Shown here: positions 28,381 through 35,177 of the stretch, piece by piece | Layout of the letters: each line of letters starts with the position of its first letter | Numbering within the stretch: the stretch's first letter is position 1 | NCBI GenBank assembly: GCA_903824045.1 | Contig: CAIJVD010000023.1 | Span: 62,001 to 126,000 of the forward strand | From: an uncultured Chlorobiaceae bacterium | GTDB lineage: Bacteria > Bacteroidota > Chlorobiia > Chlorobiales > Chlorobiaceae | Reading direction: 5' to 3' | Length of the DNA stretch: 64,000 bases | The notes under the pieces: generated by a model | What the model saw: only the letters and a program-made list of their open reading frames with translations | The model's database searches: none | Told to the model about the DNA's origin: nothing | Program-made: the position numbers and the translations under genes

Positions 28381-28716
28381 ATGCAGAGAACTCTAACAGC
28401 GGTTGAATACAGCGGAGAGGAAGAGGTTATGGCGGGGATTGCCAAGGCGCTTGGTCATCCAGTGAGGATAAGGATCTTGAAGCTTCTTGCCACTCATGCA
28501 TGCTGTTTCACGGGGGAGCTGACGGAGCTCATTCCTATGGCGCAGTCCACGATTTCGCAGCACCTCAAGGCGCTGCTTGATGCAGGTCTTATTCAGGGAG
28601 AGATCAATCCGCCTAAAGTTCGCTACTGTATCAATTCCGAGACATGGCTTAAGGCAAACGCACTTTTTGACGTTTTTTTCAGCAAGGAGCATATCGGCGG
28701 CTGCAAGTGCAGGTAA
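28381..28716 (+). CDS. ArsR/SmtB-family transcriptional regulator
   Basis: This 111-residue winged-helix repressor contains ALGHPVRIRILKLL and the recognition helix MAQSTISQHLKALLDAGLI. Potential metalloid-binding thiols occur in HACC (residues ~40-43) and in the C-terminal GGCKCR. The start is ATG at 28381. A longer reading to 28297 would run through the presumed operator. The neighbouring permease, CxxC protein and ArsC-like gene suggest it senses arsenic or antimony species or a related thiophilic ligand. A 38-bp tandem repeat begins 4 bp after its stop codon. Confidence 0.88.
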   Translation: MQRTLTAVEYSGEEEVMAGIAKALGHPVRIRILKLLATHACCFTGELTELIPMAQSTISQHLKALLDAGLIQGEINPPKVRYCINSETWLKANALFDVFFSKEHIGGCKCR

Positions 28717-28719
28717 GCC

Positions 28720-28795
28720 GAAAGGAATGGGGACGTTCACAACAAACTCAACTAACGGAAAGGAATGGGGACGTTCACAACAAACTCAACTAACG
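28720..28795. repeat. Perfect 38-bp tandem duplication
   Basis: Two identical 38-bp units (28720-28757 and 28758-28795) abut without spacer. Each begins GAAAGGAATGGGGACG and ends AACTCAACTAACG. The 28-bp core reappears, reverse-complemented, at 31916-31943. Confidence 0.92.
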
Positions 28796-28942: not shown

Positions 28943-29251
28943 ATGAAAGAGATCAAGATTCTTGGTAGCGGATGCGCCAAGTGCAGTCAGCTTGCTGACG
29001 TGGTAAAGGCAGTTATTGAAACGGAGGGCATTGAGGCTTCCATGGAGAAGGTTGAGGATGTTCAGGCCATCATGGCATATGAGGTGCTTTCTACGCCTGC
29101 TCTGGTTGTCGATGGTGAGGTTCGCTCAAAGGGGCGCATTCCTTCTTATGATGAGATCAAGGAGATTCTGACAACCAAAAAGCATAGTTGCTGTTGTGGC
29201 GGCGCTTCGCATGGCAGCAATGGAAAGAATCCTTCCGGATGCTGTTCCTGA
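28943..29251 (+). CDS. Thioredoxin-like small redox protein (CxxC)
   Basis: This 102-residue protein of the redox-active disulfide protein 2 type has a thioredoxin fold with GSGCAKCSQL at residues ~7-16 and the cis-Pro segment STPALVVDGEV near residue 52. The C-terminal tail has six cysteines (CCCGG...CC). ATG 28943 has an AAGGAG ribosome-binding site. Such proteins commonly accompany ArsR-permease pairs. It may hand electrons or metalloid to the adjacent permease, but this is inference. Confidence 0.88.
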   Translation: MKEIKILGSGCAKCSQLADVVKAVIETEGIEASMEKVEDVQAIMAYEVLSTPALVVDGEVRSKGRIPSYDEIKEILTTKKHSCCCGGASHGSNGKNPSGCCS

Positions 29252-29305: not shown

Positions 29306-30343
29306 ATGAGTGATTCCCGAGAGCGGTCGCCCAGATGGGTCGGAGGCCTTTTGGCTGCGACAACGCTGTGGGTTTTTGTATATGGCAGCCTGGAAAATGC
29401 AGCCGGGCTGGTAGTTCAGCTTTCGGGGGTTGGCCGGGGGACTCCATTTGGCGAGGCTCTTTTCTTTTTTCTCTATGAGGTTCCGAAGGTGCTGCTGCTC
29501 CTTCTTGCAGTGGTTTTTGTGATGGGCGTGCTACACACCTTCATCTCTGCTGAACGAACCCGGGCAATTCTTTCAGGCCGGCGCACGGGCGCCGGGAACG
29601 TTATGGCGGCCCTGCTCGGCATTGTGACCCCATTCTGCTCCTGTTCTGCAGTCCCGCTCTTTATCGGGTTTTTGCAGGCAGGGGTGCCCCTCGGAGTGAC
29701 CTTCTCCTTTCTTGTTTCGGCCCCGATGATCAACGAGGTGGCCCTTGCGCTGCTCTTCGGGATGTTTGGCTGGGAAATCGCCCTGCTCTACTCCACTATG
29801 GGACTGGCCGTTGCCATTGTTTCAGGCATGGTAATCGGGAAGCTCCGGATGGAGCGATATCTGGAGGAGTGGGTGCAGAAAATGCAGGAGAGCAGGATTG
29901 CTGCTGAGGTCGAAGATGAGCCGATGAGCGTCTCAGAGAGGATCCGGGAGGGGCTGCGGCATGTCCGCGAAATTGTCGGCAAAGTGTGGCCCTACATTGC
30001 CCTTGGCGTTGGCCTCGGTGCCGCAATTCATGGCTATGTGCCAGAAAACCTCATGGCTTCGCTCATGGGCAAGACGGCCTGGTGGAGTGTTCCGCTGGCC
30101 GTGCTGATCGGCGTGCCCATGTACTCCAATGCTGCGGGGATCTTGCCGGTGGTACAGGCACTGCTTGGCAAGGGCGCAGCGCTCGGTACGGTGATGGCTT
30201 TCATGATGAGCGTCATTGCCCTCTCCGCTCCCGAGATGATCATTCTGCGCAAGGTGCTCAAACCTCGTCTGATCGCCGTTTTTGCCTCTGTTGTGGCCGC
30301 AGGAATCATGCTTGTGGGCTTTGTTTTCAATCTTGTTCTGTAA
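29306..30343 (+). CDS. Permease of the YraQ/ArsP family
   Basis: This 345-residue inner membrane protein has about eight hydrophobic segments in two halves. The family signature PFCSCSAVPLF (near residue 112) contains the paired cysteines implicated in trivalent organoarsenical binding in ArsP. The second half contains IGVPMYSNAAGILPV. A charged loop of ~40 residues joins the halves. The gene lies between the CxxC protein and the ArsC-like gene, which supports a metalloid or organo-metalloid efflux role. Confidence 0.87.
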   Translation: MSDSRERSPRWVGGLLAATTLWVFVYGSLENAAGLVVQLSGVGRGTPFGEALFFFLYEVPKVLLLLLAVVFVMGVLHTFISAERTRAILSGRRTGAGNVMAALLGIVTPFCSCSAVPLFIGFLQAGVPLGVTFSFLVSAPMINEVALALLFGMFGWEIALLYSTMGLAVAIVSGMVIGKLRMERYLEEWVQKMQESRIAAEVEDEPMSVSERIREGLRHVREIVGKVWPYIALGVGLGAAIHGYVPENLMASLMGKTAWWSVPLAVLIGVPMYSNAAGILPVVQALLGKGAALGTVMAFMMSVIALSAPEMIILRKVLKPRLIAVFASVVAAGIMLVGFVFNLVL

Positions 30344-30372: not shown

Positions 30373-30801
30373 ATGAAGAAATCAGTACTCATTCTCTCTA
30401 CCGGGAACTCCTGCCGCAGCCAGATAGCGGAGGGATTTCTCAGCTCGTTCGATCATTCGATTGAGGTCGTTTCGGCCGGAACAAATCCCGCCGCTGCGGT
30501 TCATCCGCTGGCGGTGAAGGTGATGCGTGAAGAGTGGATCGACATCAGCCACCACCAGCCTAAAAACGTCGAAGAGTTCCTCGATTGGCCGTTTGACTAT
30601 GTCGTGACGCTCTGCGGTGGGTCACTGGAGACTGGCCCGGCATTTACCGGCAGGGTTGGCGAGCATCTTCATATCGGCTTTGACGATCCAGCGGAAGCTA
30701 CAGGGTCGAAGGAAGAGTTGCTGGCGGCATTCCGCCGGGTTCGTAACGAGATCAACCAGCGTTTCAGGCTGTTCTACAACGAGGTTTTAACCAAAGAATA
30801 A
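30373..30801 (+). CDS. ArsC-like protein of the low-molecular-weight phosphatase fold, lacking the nucleophilic cysteine
   Basis: The 142 residues align well with thioredoxin-coupled arsenate reductases. The P-loop is present, as are HP...VM, DISHHQ, VVTLC and GFDDPA. The P-loop reads STGNSCRS, however, so the nucleophile (Cys10 in plasmid pI258 ArsC) is Ser9, encoded TCT. Cys14 and Cys81 remain, but the third redox cysteine (Cys89) is a Gly. Classical arsenate reduction therefore looks impossible. The reading frame is intact and follows the permease by 29 bp, so it is probably expressed. It may bind oxyanion without turnover, or use another chemistry. Confidence 0.82.
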   Translation: MKKSVLILSTGNSCRSQIAEGFLSSFDHSIEVVSAGTNPAAAVHPLAVKVMREEWIDISHHQPKNVEEFLDWPFDYVVTLCGGSLETGPAFTGRVGEHLHIGFDDPAEATGSKEELLAAFRRVRNEINQRFRLFYNEVLTKE

Positions 30802-31054
30802 TAACCAGATTCGATATCGCCGGATAGGTTTTCCTCTACCCGTCCATCCTCCCCTTCTTCATTGCAGGCGTTTTTTCAACCCTTCACCCTTTATTTTCCT
30901 CTCTTTTAAGGTGCGCTTAAAAATCCTTTAAGGGTTGCGGTGATACCTTTATTCCAGAACGAGATCAGCAGTAACACCTGCCGAACCGTTCCAGAAAGCA
31001 AACAAAGAAAAGATAATGCATAAGCAGAACGGAAAAGCAAACGAGGGGAAAACT
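30802..31054. other. Gap before the FISUMP gene, likely promoter region
   Basis: No gene is visible. An AT-rich segment, TTAAAAATCCTTTAAGG (about 30916-30932), is partly palindromic and may belong to the promoter of the downstream secreted-protein gene. I cannot define -35 and -10 boxes with confidence. Confidence 0.4.
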
Positions 31055-31831
31055 ATGAAAAAAAGAGTTAGCGCGATCTATACCTTACTGATCCTTGCGG
31101 TCACCATGATGGGTGCTGCTACCGAGCTTAGAGCTGCTGGCGCGGCCAGCGCTGTCGATATCGACAACCAGAGCTACAACACGGTAGGCATCGGGAGGCA
31201 GGTGTGGATGAAGGAGAATCTGAATGTTTCCAGGTACAGAAACGGAGACCAGATCCGTCAAGCAAAAACCAACAAGGAGTGGCTCGATGCGGGAGCCAAA
31301 GGGGAGGGCGCATGGTGCTACTACGGCAACGATCCAGGAAATGCTAAAAAATATGGCAAGATGTACAACTACTTCGCCGTAAAGGATCCAAGGGGGCTTG
31401 CTCCGTTGGGATGGCATATCCCAACCGCTGAGGAGTGGCAGACCATCGTCAAAAACCTCGGAGGAGAGAGCGTAGCCGGCGGAAAGATGAAGTCTAAGGA
31501 GGCTGGATCATGGAAATACCCGAATCACGATGCCTCCAACAGCAGCGGCTTTACAGCCAACCCTGGAGGATTCAGGGGCATGACCGATCTGGAGTTCAAG
31601 TTCGCAGGTGAAAACGCCTACTTCTGGTCATCTTCGGAGTTCTCAGCGACTCAGTCATGGTGTGCGCTCTTGCACTTCGAGCACCCGAACGTCATTTTTA
31701 CTGCCGAAGAGAAGTTTGAGGGGAGCTCAGTGCGCTGCATCCGCGACACCGATATGCTCGGCAAAGCAATGAAGAAGACAGGTGTGATGAGAACCTCACA
31801 GCTGCAGAAAACTTCACGCGTCAAAGCTTAA
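31055..31831 (+). CDS. Secreted FISUMP-domain protein
   Basis: The 258-residue protein has a signal peptide (MKKRVSAIYTLLILAVTMMG, cleavage likely near ELRAAG) and one Fibrobacter succinogenes major paralogous domain. The domain pattern is DIDNQSYNTVGIGRQVWMKE, LGWHIPTAEEW, GFTANPGGFR, FWSSSE and SVRCIRD. The function is unknown, though the domain is frequent in exported proteins of Bacteroidetes and Fibrobacteres. ATG 31055 has a GAGGGG ribosome-binding site. An earlier in-frame start (31016) would add 13 polar residues ahead of the signal peptide. Confidence 0.85.
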   Translation: MKKRVSAIYTLLILAVTMMGAATELRAAGAASAVDIDNQSYNTVGIGRQVWMKENLNVSRYRNGDQIRQAKTNKEWLDAGAKGEGAWCYYGNDPGNAKKYGKMYNYFAVKDPRGLAPLGWHIPTAEEWQTIVKNLGGESVAGGKMKSKEAGSWKYPNHDASNSSGFTANPGGFRGMTDLEFKFAGENAYFWSSSEFSATQSWCALLHFEHPNVIFTAEEKFEGSSVRCIRDTDMLGKAMKKTGVMRTSQLQKTSRVKA

Positions 31832-31848
31832 AAGCGGCGATTGCCGCT

Positions 31849-31892
31849 GTGTCAGTCCGTGTTCGTCCGTGTGAGTCCGTGACTGTCCGTGC
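31849..31892. repeat. Dispersed GTCCGTGT-type repeat, copy 3
   Basis: Four units (GTCAGTCCGTGT, TCGTCCGTGT, GAGTCCGTGA, CTGTCCGTG) lie just after the FISUMP gene. Confidence 0.75.
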
Positions 31893-31915
31893 CAATCAAT
31901 GCTTTCTTTGATAGA

Positions 31916-31943
31916 GTTAGTTGAGTTTGTTGTGAACGTCCCC
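31916..31943. repeat. Inverted copy of the 28-bp repeat core found at 28720
   Basis: The 28 bp are the exact reverse complement of the core of the tandem duplication at 28720-28795. They are followed by two CCCCTAAGTTG units. Together the copies bracket 3.2 kb holding the CxxC protein, permease, ArsC-like and FISUMP genes. Confidence 0.9.
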
Positions 31944-31968
31944 TAAGTTGTCCCCTAAGTTGGAAAAA

Positions 31969-31999
31969 CAAAAAGGCCGGGGTGATCCCGGCCTTTTTT
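31969..31999 (-). terminator. Terminator of the cytochrome c-555 gene
   Basis: The stem AAAAGGCCGGG / CCCGGCCTTTT lies ~25 bp beyond the stop codon of the minus-strand cytochrome gene and has T-tracts on both strands, so it could work bidirectionally. Confidence 0.88.
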
Positions 32000-32022
32000 G
32001 CGTTATCGCGTAAAAGAGAAGC

Positions 32023-32358
32023 TTACTTGCTCTGCTCGACGATGTAGGTAACTGCATTGCCGATATCCTGAGTGGAGAAAGAGGCCTTGCCGCCTTTAGC
32101 TGGCATGGTGCCTTTCTTGCCCTGGAAGCCTTTGTCGGCATGCTCGACGAGGACGTCAACGCCCTGGGCGATACGTGGTCCCCATGCAGCTTTATCGCCT
32201 ACTTTCGGTGCGTTCACAAGACCGGTCTTGTGGCAGGCGGAACAGCTTGAGTCATAAATGGCTTTGCCTGCAGTCGCGTCGTAAGCAGCGGAAGCGTCTA
32301 CAGAGCTGATGGCAACAACGGCAAGGGCGCAAAGGGCCGCAGAGATGATACGGGACAT
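32023..32358 (-). CDS. Cytochrome c-555 (soluble class I c-type cytochrome)
   Basis: The 111 residues have a signal peptide (~24 residues ending VDASA) and a single heme site SCSACHK. The AYDATAGKAIYDSSC N-terminus, GAPK-like NAPKVGDKAAW segment and MPAKGG sixth-ligand methionine closely follow the c-555/c-554 (CycA) of Chlorobaculum tepidum as I recall it. That protein carries electrons in the periplasm to the reaction-centre cytochrome. An AAGGAG ribosome-binding site lies ~7 nt upstream of ATG 32358, and a promoter lies about 100 bp upstream. The upstream neighbour is a cytochrome-porin gene in the same direction. Confidence 0.92.
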   Translation of the reverse strand: MSRIISAALCALAVVAISSVDASAAYDATAGKAIYDSSCSACHKTGLVNAPKVGDKAAWGPRIAQGVDVLVEHADKGFQGKKGTMPAKGGKASFSTQDIGNAVTYIVEQSK

Positions 32359-32451
32359 TGGTAGTTCTCCTTATTGTTTTATAAGATGTTGGGCCGGGAT
32401 ACTTTTGTGTAATGATGCACACAAACCTTTTATACTACGAGAATAATCCGA

Positions 32452-32482
32452 ATTATACAACATTTAGGGGGATTATTGTAAA
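32452..32482 (-). promoter_or_regulatory. Sigma-70-type promoter of cytochrome c-555
   Basis: On the minus strand, TTTACA and a consensus TATAAT are 19 bp apart (TTACAA with 18 bp is an alternative). The -10 box ends ~94 bp upstream of the start codon. Confidence 0.6.
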
Positions 32483-32562
32483 CAATCGTGAATAATATTT
32501 TTCCGGAATAACCCGACGCAAGGCCTGCTTGCTCGGCTCTTTTGTGGTGAAATGCCCGGAAA

Positions 32563-32604
32563 CAAGAAAGGCAGGATCGTCTGGTGACGATCCTGCCTTT
32601 CTTG
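32563..32604 (-). terminator. Long hairpin terminator of the cytochrome-porin gene
   Basis: A perfect 19-bp stem (CAAGAAAGGCAGGATCGTC and its complement) with a TGGT loop lies 46 bp beyond the stop codon of the minus-strand gene at 32650. It separates that transcript from the c-555 promoter. Its T-tract is interrupted, so it could also be a transcript-stabilising hairpin. Confidence 0.8.
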
Positions 32605-32649
32605 AGCTGTGATGCTTGTTCCGGTCAGAAGACCGAAGTCAGCAGTTGC

Positions 32650-33990
32650 TTAGAACGCAGCCTGTACCGCAAGGTTGAACGTATTTGCGGTTGTGTTGGC
32701 TCCAGCTGCGAGATTTGCAGCGGTGTCGTAATACTTGCGCTGGTTATAGGTGTAGGTGCCTGTCATCGAGATATTTGGTGCAGGCCACCATGCGACAGAC
32801 GGTGCAATTGTCGGCTTGTGGATAAGGTTTGGCGTTGCAATGTTGGCTGCATTGGCGATATCGGCATAGGTGATCTTTGCGTAGACCGACGGGATCACAA
32901 AGTAGCCAATTGCAGTCTGGTAGTTGGTGAGCTTCAGATCCTTGTCTTTGCTGACAGCAAAACCAAAGATGACGTTCTGATAGGCTGCCTGGATATCACC
33001 ACCGTATACGAGGGATTCGCCAAGATAGTTTGCGGAGAAGCCTCTTGGAGAGGTTTTAATGGTTGTGGCATTGTTAATGGTGGAAGCGTGGGTGAGGCCA
33101 CCGCCGATGCTGAGCTGATTGTCAACACCGTTGTAGTTGTTGCCGAACTCTCCGCCAGTGCCACTGAGCAGGCCAGCACCAATCAGCTTGACCTTTGCAC
33201 GAACATAGGTAAGGTCATTGAGCTTATTGATGGCAGCGCTGTAGCCGACTGTGTTGTATTTCGCGCCAGTGCTGGTGCCTGCGGTGATGGTGTAGCCACC
33301 AGTCTCACCCTGTGTGTAGGTCAATTCAGCATAGGTCTGCGGAGCAGGAAGTACGTTAGTAGCCTGAGATACATAGCCATTATAGGTTCCACCCTGGAAG
33401 GCGTTGCCGATAGCAAAGTTCAGCCCTGGCTGGATCTGGTATACTGCCCTTAGCGTGTGGCTGGCATTTGTCTCAATAGTGGTGACTGTTTCGTCAGTTT
33501 CAACAACTGCAGTACCGAGTCCTCCGATCTGGCCAAAGATGGTGAAGTTATCTCCGAGTGATGCGCCATAAAAGAGGTTGAGTCCATTGGGTGCGTTAAT
33601 CGTGAACGCCTTTCCCGAGCTTGCACCTGTTTTAGAGTTTGTCACCTGATTGGAATAGCTGATGACGTTTCCGTTGACAACGATAGATAGCGGATTAAAC
33701 TGCGGGATGGAGCCGGTGTTCGGCGCATCGATGGATTTCTTCCAGTCTTCCACACCCAGCTTGACATTTTCCTGCTTGGTGAATGCTCCGTCTCCACCGC
33801 CCGGCAGGCGGAAGCCGTTGTTCATAAAGGCCTCACCGGTAGCGTTGCGTGCAGCAAAGCCGGAGTGACACATGTAACAGGAAACCTGATACTTTCTTGC
33901 CCATGACGGGATTGCAGAGCTCTCATTGCTCCAGAACATCGCCGGTACCATGCAGAGTGTAGCAATGGACGCGAATCTCATTTTTTTCAT
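32650..33990 (-). CDS. Cyc2-like monoheme cytochrome fused to an outer-membrane porin barrel (putative)
   Basis: The 446 residues start with a signal peptide (MKKMRFASIATLCMVPAMFW...ESSA). The mature start is IPSWARKYQVSCYMCHSGFA, with one CxxCH, then a GEAFMNNGF segment. About 380 residues of alternating polar/hydrophobic, Gly/Asn/Thr-rich strands follow, ending in a C-terminal Phe (NLAVQAAF), as expected for an outer-membrane beta-barrel. The P-x-[FW]-A-R...CxxCH...NG[FY] layout and total length match Cyc2 cytochrome-porins of Fe(II) oxidisers. The start is ATG 33990. An in-frame reading to 34176 runs through the promoter. Family membership is inferred by eye, and a generic monoheme porin of green sulfur bacteria is the alternative. 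Confidence 0.72.
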   Translation of the reverse strand: MKKMRFASIATLCMVPAMFWSNESSAIPSWARKYQVSCYMCHSGFAARNATGEAFMNNGFRLPGGGDGAFTKQENVKLGVEDWKKSIDAPNTGSIPQFNPLSIVVNGNVISYSNQVTNSKTGASSGKAFTINAPNGLNLFYGASLGDNFTIFGQIGGLGTAVVETDETVTTIETNASHTLRAVYQIQPGLNFAIGNAFQGGTYNGYVSQATNVLPAPQTYAELTYTQGETGGYTITAGTSTGAKYNTVGYSAAINKLNDLTYVRAKVKLIGAGLLSGTGGEFGNNYNGVDNQLSIGGGLTHASTINNATTIKTSPRGFSANYLGESLVYGGDIQAAYQNVIFGFAVSKDKDLKLTNYQTAIGYFVIPSVYAKITYADIANAANIATPNLIHKPTIAPSVAWWPAPNISMTGTYTYNQRKYYDTAANLAAGANTTANTFNLAVQAAF

Positions 33991-34138
33991 AAGTCGGATA
34001 CTCCGTGTTTGTGATTGGATGGATTGTTTGTTGCTTGCAAAGCATAAAAAAACAAGGAGATGTTTCCTGACAGATCCTTGTTCTCCACCGCTCGTCGAAT
34101 CTTCCCAACTGGTTGTTGGGGGTCGGCCGAACGTCGCG

Positions 34139-34167
34139 ATATAATGAAAAGTCGGATTTATTTTCAA
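34139..34167 (-). promoter_or_regulatory. Sigma-70-type promoter of the cytochrome-porin gene
   Basis: On the minus strand, TTGAAA, 17 bp, then TTATAT lie ~150 bp upstream of ATG 33990, leaving a long 5' leader. The leader contains no obvious ORF. The rest of the 33991-34451 gap holds no supported gene, and at its end are CCAAAAT words repeated three times (about 34418-34446). Confidence 0.55.
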
Positions 34168-34451
34168 ATAATCCAAATATTGCCATCAATTAGTTCTCGA
34201 TTGTTAAGTTTTTTACGGTTTTTTGCATCATTTTTCAGCCACTTTCCAGTGAACTGCAGACGCCCGCAGCGCTTCAGGTTCACCGCTTTTTTCATTATAC
34301 TATTACATATGATGATGATTCCGGATTTTGAATTACAGTTTTTGATTCAAAGAGGTCAACACCGATTTTTCTCGTGTTTCGGTTAGGCCCATCCTCTTTG
34401 TATGCGCGCTGTCTAATCCAAAATTAGAATCCAAAATCCAAAATCCCATAA

Positions 34452-35177
34452 ATGAACGAACCCATTCTCCGGCTTGAGGGCATCCGCAGGGAGCTCGAGC
34501 TTTCAAAGGATATCCGCCAGACCATCATCCCGAATCTCTCTCTTGAGATAGGGGCTGGGGAGTTCATTGCCATCACCGGCCCTTCCGGTTCTGGCAAATC
34601 GACCTTGCTCTACATTATGGGCGGTCTCGACAAGCCGACCTTCGGTCAAGTCTGGCTGGACGGGGAGGATATTACCGCAAAGAACGAGACAGAGATGACC
34701 CGCATCCGCAATGAGAAGATCGGTTTCATCTACCAGTTTCATTTTCTTCTTCCCGAGTTCAGCGCCCTGGAGAATGTCAGCATGCCGATGATGATCAACG
34801 GCCGGCGGAGCCGGAAGGAGATTCGCGAGCGAGCCTCTCTGCTGCTCGACATGGTTGAGATGCAGAATAAGTATACCAATAAACCGAGCCAGCTTTCGGG
34901 AGGACAACAGCAACGCGTCGCCATAGCAAGGGCGCTTGCCAACGAGCCGAAGGTGCTGCTTGGCGACGAGCCGACCGGCAATCTCGATTCCCGCTCGGCC
35001 GACAATGTCTATCAGCTTTTTGACCGGCTGAATCGCGAGTTGAACCAGACCATCATTGTCGTCACCCACGATGAGGATTTTGCCAACCGCGCCGGCCGGC
35101 GGATTCACCTTGTGGATGGCACGATAGAGAGCGACCGGAAGCTCCATAGCGTTCCGGCCCTGCAGTCGCAGGATTGA
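34452..35177 (+). CDS. ABC transporter ATP-binding protein (LolD/MacB type)
   Basis: This 241-residue ATPase has Walker [10 protein letters not shown], the Q-loop in [20 protein letters not shown], the signature [14 protein letters not shown], Walker [14 protein letters not shown] and H-loop THDEDFA. Sequence around the Q-loop and D-loop places it with LolD-like ATPases, which power lipoprotein release or substrate efflux across the envelope. No permease is adjacent, so the partner must be encoded elsewhere. The CruA gene starts 36 bp downstream. Confidence 0.88.

Follow-up and report, generated by a model that had tools for sequence, protein, structure and literature searches.

The ars cluster and its ArsC-like gene

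The window, meaning the whole 64,000-nucleotide stretch of DNA that was analysed, contains a short ars cluster in the order arsR, arsE, arsP and, last, an ArsC-like gene (Table 1). The host genome (G000) measures 2.09 Mb and is 99.96% complete and 0.26% contaminated, and the closest relatives used for comparison were Chlorobiaceae. The first-pass annotation had described an open frame within an ArsR-CxxC protein-permease cluster, and this description was borne out by the Pfam and NCBIfam assignments of the three upstream genes, all of which were intact (arsP orthologues were up to 82% identical). A 27-base repeat (GGGGACGTTCACAACAAACTCAACTAA) was found as a tandem pair between arsR and arsE, with a third, inverted copy in the window downstream of the ArsC-like gene; 15 copies were counted in the genome at up to 3 mismatches, several as close pairs, and the repeat is possibly a REP-like element. 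The next conserved gene downstream of the cluster encodes a LolD-like ABC ATPase. The stretch of about 3.4 kb that separates the two carries three genes, one of them cytochrome c-like, and is absent from relatives in which the lolD-like gene directly adjoins the cluster.

Table 1. Coordinates of the ars cluster and neighbouring features in the window
Feature	Position	Strand	Remarks
arsR, ArsR/SmtB metalloregulator	28381..28716	+	Intact; first gene of the cluster; Pfam HTH_20/HTH_5, NCBIfam HTH_metalloreg
27-base repeat, tandem pair	28729-28755, 28767-28793	+	Possible REP-like element
arsE, MTH895/ArsE thioredoxin-like protein	28943..29251	+	Intact; CAKC; Cys-rich tail; NCBIfam TIGR00412 above cut-off
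arsP, ArsP_1 permease	29306..30343	+	Intact; Pfam PF03773, E=1e-73
arsC-like gene, putative pseudoenzyme	30373..30801	+	Fold of thioredoxin-type ArsC; C9S, C88G
P-loop STGNSCRS, codons 9-16	30397..30420	+	Nucleophile codon 30397-30399 = TCT (Ser)
Former redox segment LCGGSLETG, codons 80-88	30610..30636	+	Third Cys codon 30634-30636 = GGC (Gly)
Probable acr3 remnant, internal fragment	30804..30872	+	69 bases; matches model positions 541-603; immediately follows the arsC stop codon
Stretch between arsC and the lolD-like gene	31016-34450		Three genes, one cytochrome c-like
27-base repeat, third copy	31917-31943	-	Inverted
LolD-like ABC ATPase	34452..35177	+	Next conserved downstream gene

The ArsC-like gene is an open frame of 142 codons without stops, and its translation starts MKKSVLILSTGNSCRSQ. 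The protein belongs to the LMW-PTP fold (Pfam PF01451, E=2e-17); scored alone, it reached 104 bits with its best NCBIfam model, against a cut-off of 174. The translation confirmed the residues reported in the first-pass annotation: serine stands in place of the nucleophilic cysteine of the P-loop (Ser9) and glycine in place of the third redox cysteine (Gly88), while Cys14, Cys81 and the acid aspartate (Asp105, in GFDDPA) are kept. Arg15, the oxyanion-binding arginine of the P-loop, and Asp105 are invariant in the orthologue alignment, the ArsC-like protein included.

In the pI258 arsenate reductase, Cys10 attacks arsenate and Cys82 and Cys89 relay the disulfide outward, Cys89 being the target of thioredoxin (PMC2714181, PMC6193951). 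Ser9 takes the position of Cys10; of the two cysteines carried on the redox helix (Cys82 and Cys89), the first is retained as Cys81, the second is Gly88, and the helix itself is not predicted. The relay is thus lost at both ends, so by the established mechanism the canonical reaction is not expected to proceed. The protein is almost certainly no canonical arsenate reductase, and its loss of catalytic residues (C9S, C88G) is that expected of a pseudoenzyme.

A structure was predicted with AlphaFold2 from the family alignment, giving a confident ArsC fold (mean pLDDT 91.5) in which segment 81-90 had a mean pLDDT of 59 and no helix; in the C. ferrooxidans orthologue, run as a control by the same procedure, this segment had a pLDDT of 82 and a helix at 82-86. 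The model thus shows a fold predicted to be intact except for the redox helix. Foldseek neighbours of the model were arsenate reductases, headed by Deinococcus indicus ArsC2 co-crystallised with arsenate (TM 0.87-0.91; TM 0.87 to 8p5n), and by title the list included the C10S/C15A mutants of pI258 ArsC (1jf8, 1jfv) and YwlE C7S with a phosphorylated serine (4kk4).

Orthologues and selection on the host-strain branch

An alignment of Chlorobiaceae ArsC homologues had been proposed in the first-pass annotation as a check on whether Ser9 is conserved in this gene context. It is not: CTGNSCRS with Cys9, as well as Cys81 and Cys88, was present in 41 of 41 other distinct full-length Chlorobiaceae orthologues (about 66-74% identity), many of them in arsR-arsE-arsP-arsC order, and eight remoter orthologues (58-69% identity) likewise had CTGNSCRS and the third cysteine. 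With no orthologue carrying Ser9, the serine was rejected as a conserved trait of the gene context. The same annotation had allowed that homologues in this context might all keep the cysteine and this strain alone have decayed; the first part held, the cysteine having been lost in the host strain alone, and the second did not, as the gene is not decayed in general. Among 68 columns invariant in the 41 relatives, the ArsC-like protein was changed at four (C9S, V80L, A84S and C88G), compared with 0-1 changes in each of the other orthologues. All four private changes lie at or beside catalytic residues, and the segment around the lost third cysteine had diverged at other positions as well. No private change at invariant columns was found in arsR, and two were found in arsE.

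Across the phylum (394 genomes scanned), a P-loop pattern with a TCN serine codon matched a single genome, that of the host; the AGY version was covered within the aligned orthologues only. Of 86 Chlorobiaceae genomes, 77 carried the cysteine pattern, and the host genome is among them through an intact paralogue. No sister strain with C9S was found, and a plasmid search recovered only homologues below 60% identity. That the catalytic-codon changes occur in a single genome might point to a sequencing or assembly error. Such an error is extremely improbable, given that two catalytic codons carry separate differences of transversion type, with further changes nearby, and given the open frame and the completeness and low contamination of the genome.

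Selection was estimated with a three-class codon model (own script and implementation), with the host-strain branch as foreground. Overall, the ArsC-like gene was relaxed on this branch (K=0.61, p=0.004), and no relaxation was found for arsR (K=1.08) or arsE (K=0.96). Mild relaxation of arsP was also recorded on the branch (K=0.76, p=0.02), with no obvious cause. An earlier exclusion of codons 9 and 80-88 was post hoc, and the analysis was repeated with an active-site region of nine codons (9 and 81-88) preset on the basis of the pI258 mechanism, the remaining 133 codons forming the rest. K was 0.12 for the active site versus 0.80 for the rest (2dlnL 14.0, the highest among 35 branches tested alike, the next being 3.5). 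This comparison draws its active-site signal from only nine codons, on a long branch with much synonymous change (t about 1.9), and with the background tree and its branch lengths fixed apart from a scale.

Neutral tails were then fitted to the terminal branch. One common time for the whole gene gave lnL -6475.2 and separate times gave lnL -6467.8 (2dlnL 14.9), and none of 9000 parametric simulations under a common time matched the observed difference. With separate tails, the neutral fraction of the branch was 40% for the active site (support about 14-100%) and 0.5% for the rest (at most about 3%). Neutrality of the ArsC-like gene over the whole branch lay 24 lnL below full constraint; on the non-catalytic codons alone, a gene-wide neutral tail of about 3% was still compatible. 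The model thus shows active-site codons evolving almost neutrally on the host-strain branch and the other 133 under constraint, and for this one strain it suggests that purifying selection has acted on the rest of the protein after the loss. The estimated age and persistence of the loss rest on the codon model because no C9S sister strain was found. An old whole-gene pseudogene was rejected, as whole-branch neutrality and a common neutral tail fit far worse; the frame is intact, and gene-wide release from selection was not seen. The gene is not a canonical reductase, and it is not a simple old pseudogene either.

Fast change restricted to the active-site codons is also what one would expect if the P-loop and redox segment had been remodelled by positive selection to suit a new partner or oxyanion, a gain of function rather than a release. 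The fitted exponent, however, shifts this segment in the direction of neutrality (the test covered rates up to neutral), and most of the changes take functional groups away (C9S, C88G), which makes such remodelling very unlikely.

Still less likely is an active reductase with an unusual mechanism, in which Ser9 or Cys14 would attack arsenate and Cys14 and Cys81, with the Cys-rich ArsE, would replace the disulfide relay. The first-pass annotation had raised a mechanism through Cys14 and the Cys-rich partner, and the retention of Cys14, Cys81, Arg15 and Asp105 next to an ArsE with CAKC is in keeping with it. The evidence nevertheless tells against it: the protein lacks the nucleophile as well as the cysteine that thioredoxin would target, its predicted structure shows no redox helix, and the active-site codons are almost neutral rather than under new constraint. 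Nothing compensatory is visible either, because the Cys-rich tail of ArsE is a family trait equally present beside fully catalytic ArsCs.

Other ars loci and the loss of acr3

A complete arsR-arsC-arsD-arsA-acr3 operon was located on another host contig (L108 3212-7389), and a further intact host arsC (L002 859-1281, minus strand; G000:C11) has genes for a PhoB-like response regulator and a PstS-like protein as neighbours. The orthologue of this PhoB-linked arsC comes after acr3 in the ars operon of several relatives. The second arsC type (at least 79% identity) was present in 7 of 86 family genomes, the host included, and the first arsC was absent from three of the six others (G007, G019, G036), frameshifted in one (G012) and retained in two (G010, G013). 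The first-arsC locus of G013 was intact. In G010, which also retains the cysteines, acr3 was internally deleted, with residues 1-24 and 299-345 remaining beside an intact arsC (L125 1232-1450). In G012, an arsC pseudogene directly followed arsP (L121 3214-3780), frameshifted and with a stop after about 38 codons, and was followed in turn by an acr3 remnant. Both arsC and acr3 were gone from G007 and G019, and the whole cluster from G036. Counted over genomes at least 90% complete, the first arsC was lost or dead in 5 of 7 genomes with the second type versus 3 of 58 without it (Fisher p=1.3e-4; p=7.6e-4 without the host strain; both values ignore relatedness). These related genomes neatly illustrate the replacement of one ars operon by another, since the locus occurs in them as intact, half-deleted, dead, frameshifted or missing.

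In most relatives, acr3 begins 6-21 bases after arsC; it is gone after the ArsC-like gene of the host, where an nhmmer search of the 214-base gap detected a probable remnant (E=7.5e-4; a score this high came from 0 of 1000 shuffles but from 2 of 589 other segments of the window). The apparent presence of acr3 after arsC at every well-covered relative locus is a sampling effect, with duplicates from two collections and a locus (L125) holding only acr3 fragments. Relatives without acr3 have the LolD-like gene immediately downstream of arsP or arsC. It adjoins arsC in G002, G003, G014, G017, G022 and G039, and the cysteines are retained in all of them. Because these six relatives lack acr3 and keep their cysteines, loss of acr3 alone fails to explain the lost cysteines, and it was rejected as a sufficient cause.

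Among relatives carrying the second arsC type, the same gene is a pseudogene or has been deleted, a pattern that favours simple decay. On this reading the host gene is a recently killed, non-functional reductase, made redundant by the second ars operon, whose intact frame would reflect little elapsed time; the graded loss across the second-type genomes (G013, G010, G012, G007, G019, G036), together with the missing acr3 and its probable remnant, fits such a course. Against it, the fit is far poorer with a neutral period for the entire gene, whatever its length, than with different rates for the active site and the remainder, the four changes at invariant columns are all at or beside catalytic residues, and the upstream arsR, arsE and arsP are intact. 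Decay in progress is the main rival reading, a substantial possibility though less likely than not.

Proposed role and comparison with known systems

The explanation given somewhat better than even chances, from the residues and the codon model, is that a redundant arsenate reductase has lost catalysis and been retained as a folded pseudoenzyme that probably binds oxyanions. The Cys9 nucleophile and the thioredoxin-accessible Cys88 have been lost in the host strain only, and the frame, the other P-loop residues, Arg15 and the aspartate are kept. According to the codon model, the catalytic segment would have escaped selection over a considerable share of the lineage's history, with the rest still constrained. 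Arsenate reduction may have moved to the separate arsR-arsC-arsD-arsA-acr3 operon and the PhoB-linked second arsC, a takeover that would have made catalysis at this locus dispensable and allowed deletion of the partner acr3. The surviving P-loop may bind arsenate or phosphate without turnover, by analogy with laboratory Cys-to-Ser mutants of the fold, and the protein may serve the arsR-arsE-arsP system as an oxyanion-binding or partner-binding protein.

An oxyanion-binding or regulatory role had been suggested in the first-pass annotation from the conserved fold without its nucleophile. The conserved fold stands, and because the non-catalytic part appears to be still constrained, a non-catalytic role is the leading reading; the role itself is a reading of the residues and the model. 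The narrower proposal, of a natural ArsC pseudoenzyme kept as an arsenate or phosphate binder that possibly modulates ArsP or ArsR/ArsE, reduction having moved elsewhere, is put forward tentatively, at rather less than even chances. Family membership alone would label this gene an arsenate reductase, which is a caution for annotation. Within the literature collection that was searched, no paper paired 'pseudoenzyme' with 'arsenate reductase'.

The ArsC-like protein resembles thioredoxin-coupled ArsC of the S. aureus pI258 and B. subtilis type in its LMW-PTP fold, its P-loop of the form x-T-G-N-S-C-R-S with Arg15, its second catalytic cysteine (Cys81), its acid Asp105 and its ars-type operon; it differs in having serine for the nucleophilic cysteine and glycine for the third cysteine, and in that the redox helix is not predicted. 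In ars operons with redox-active disulfide protein 2, the redox protein was proposed to act with ArsC (PMC2963123). A similar thioredoxin-like protein is encoded alongside arsC in the host cluster, but unlike those systems, the host ArsC-like protein should be unable to accept electrons by the known route.

Binding by a PTP-type P-loop protein in place of catalysis, the putative mode of the ArsC-like protein, has parallels in two papers (PMC4257672, PMC10040874), in which MK-STYX is a pseudophosphatase and PRL proteins act as pseudophosphatases on CNNM transporters. As described there, the partner of PRL is a transporter; MK-STYX and PRL are, however, eukaryotic and of other PTP classes, and any corresponding link of the ArsC-like protein to ArsP is one that we infer. 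Closest in the change itself are the mutants C10S/C15A of ArsC (1jf8, 1jfv) and C7S of YwlE with phosphoserine (4kk4), which share the Cys-to-Ser replacement of the P-loop nucleophile; Cys-to-Ser ArsC mutants have been used in laboratory work (PMC2714181). The host protein differs from these in that the change is natural, the third cysteine is also lost and Cys14 is kept. If arsenate is still bound, the protein would be a natural counterpart of the laboratory Cys-to-Ser mutants, and an ArsC fold with a selected, non-catalytic role in arsR-arsE-arsP clusters.
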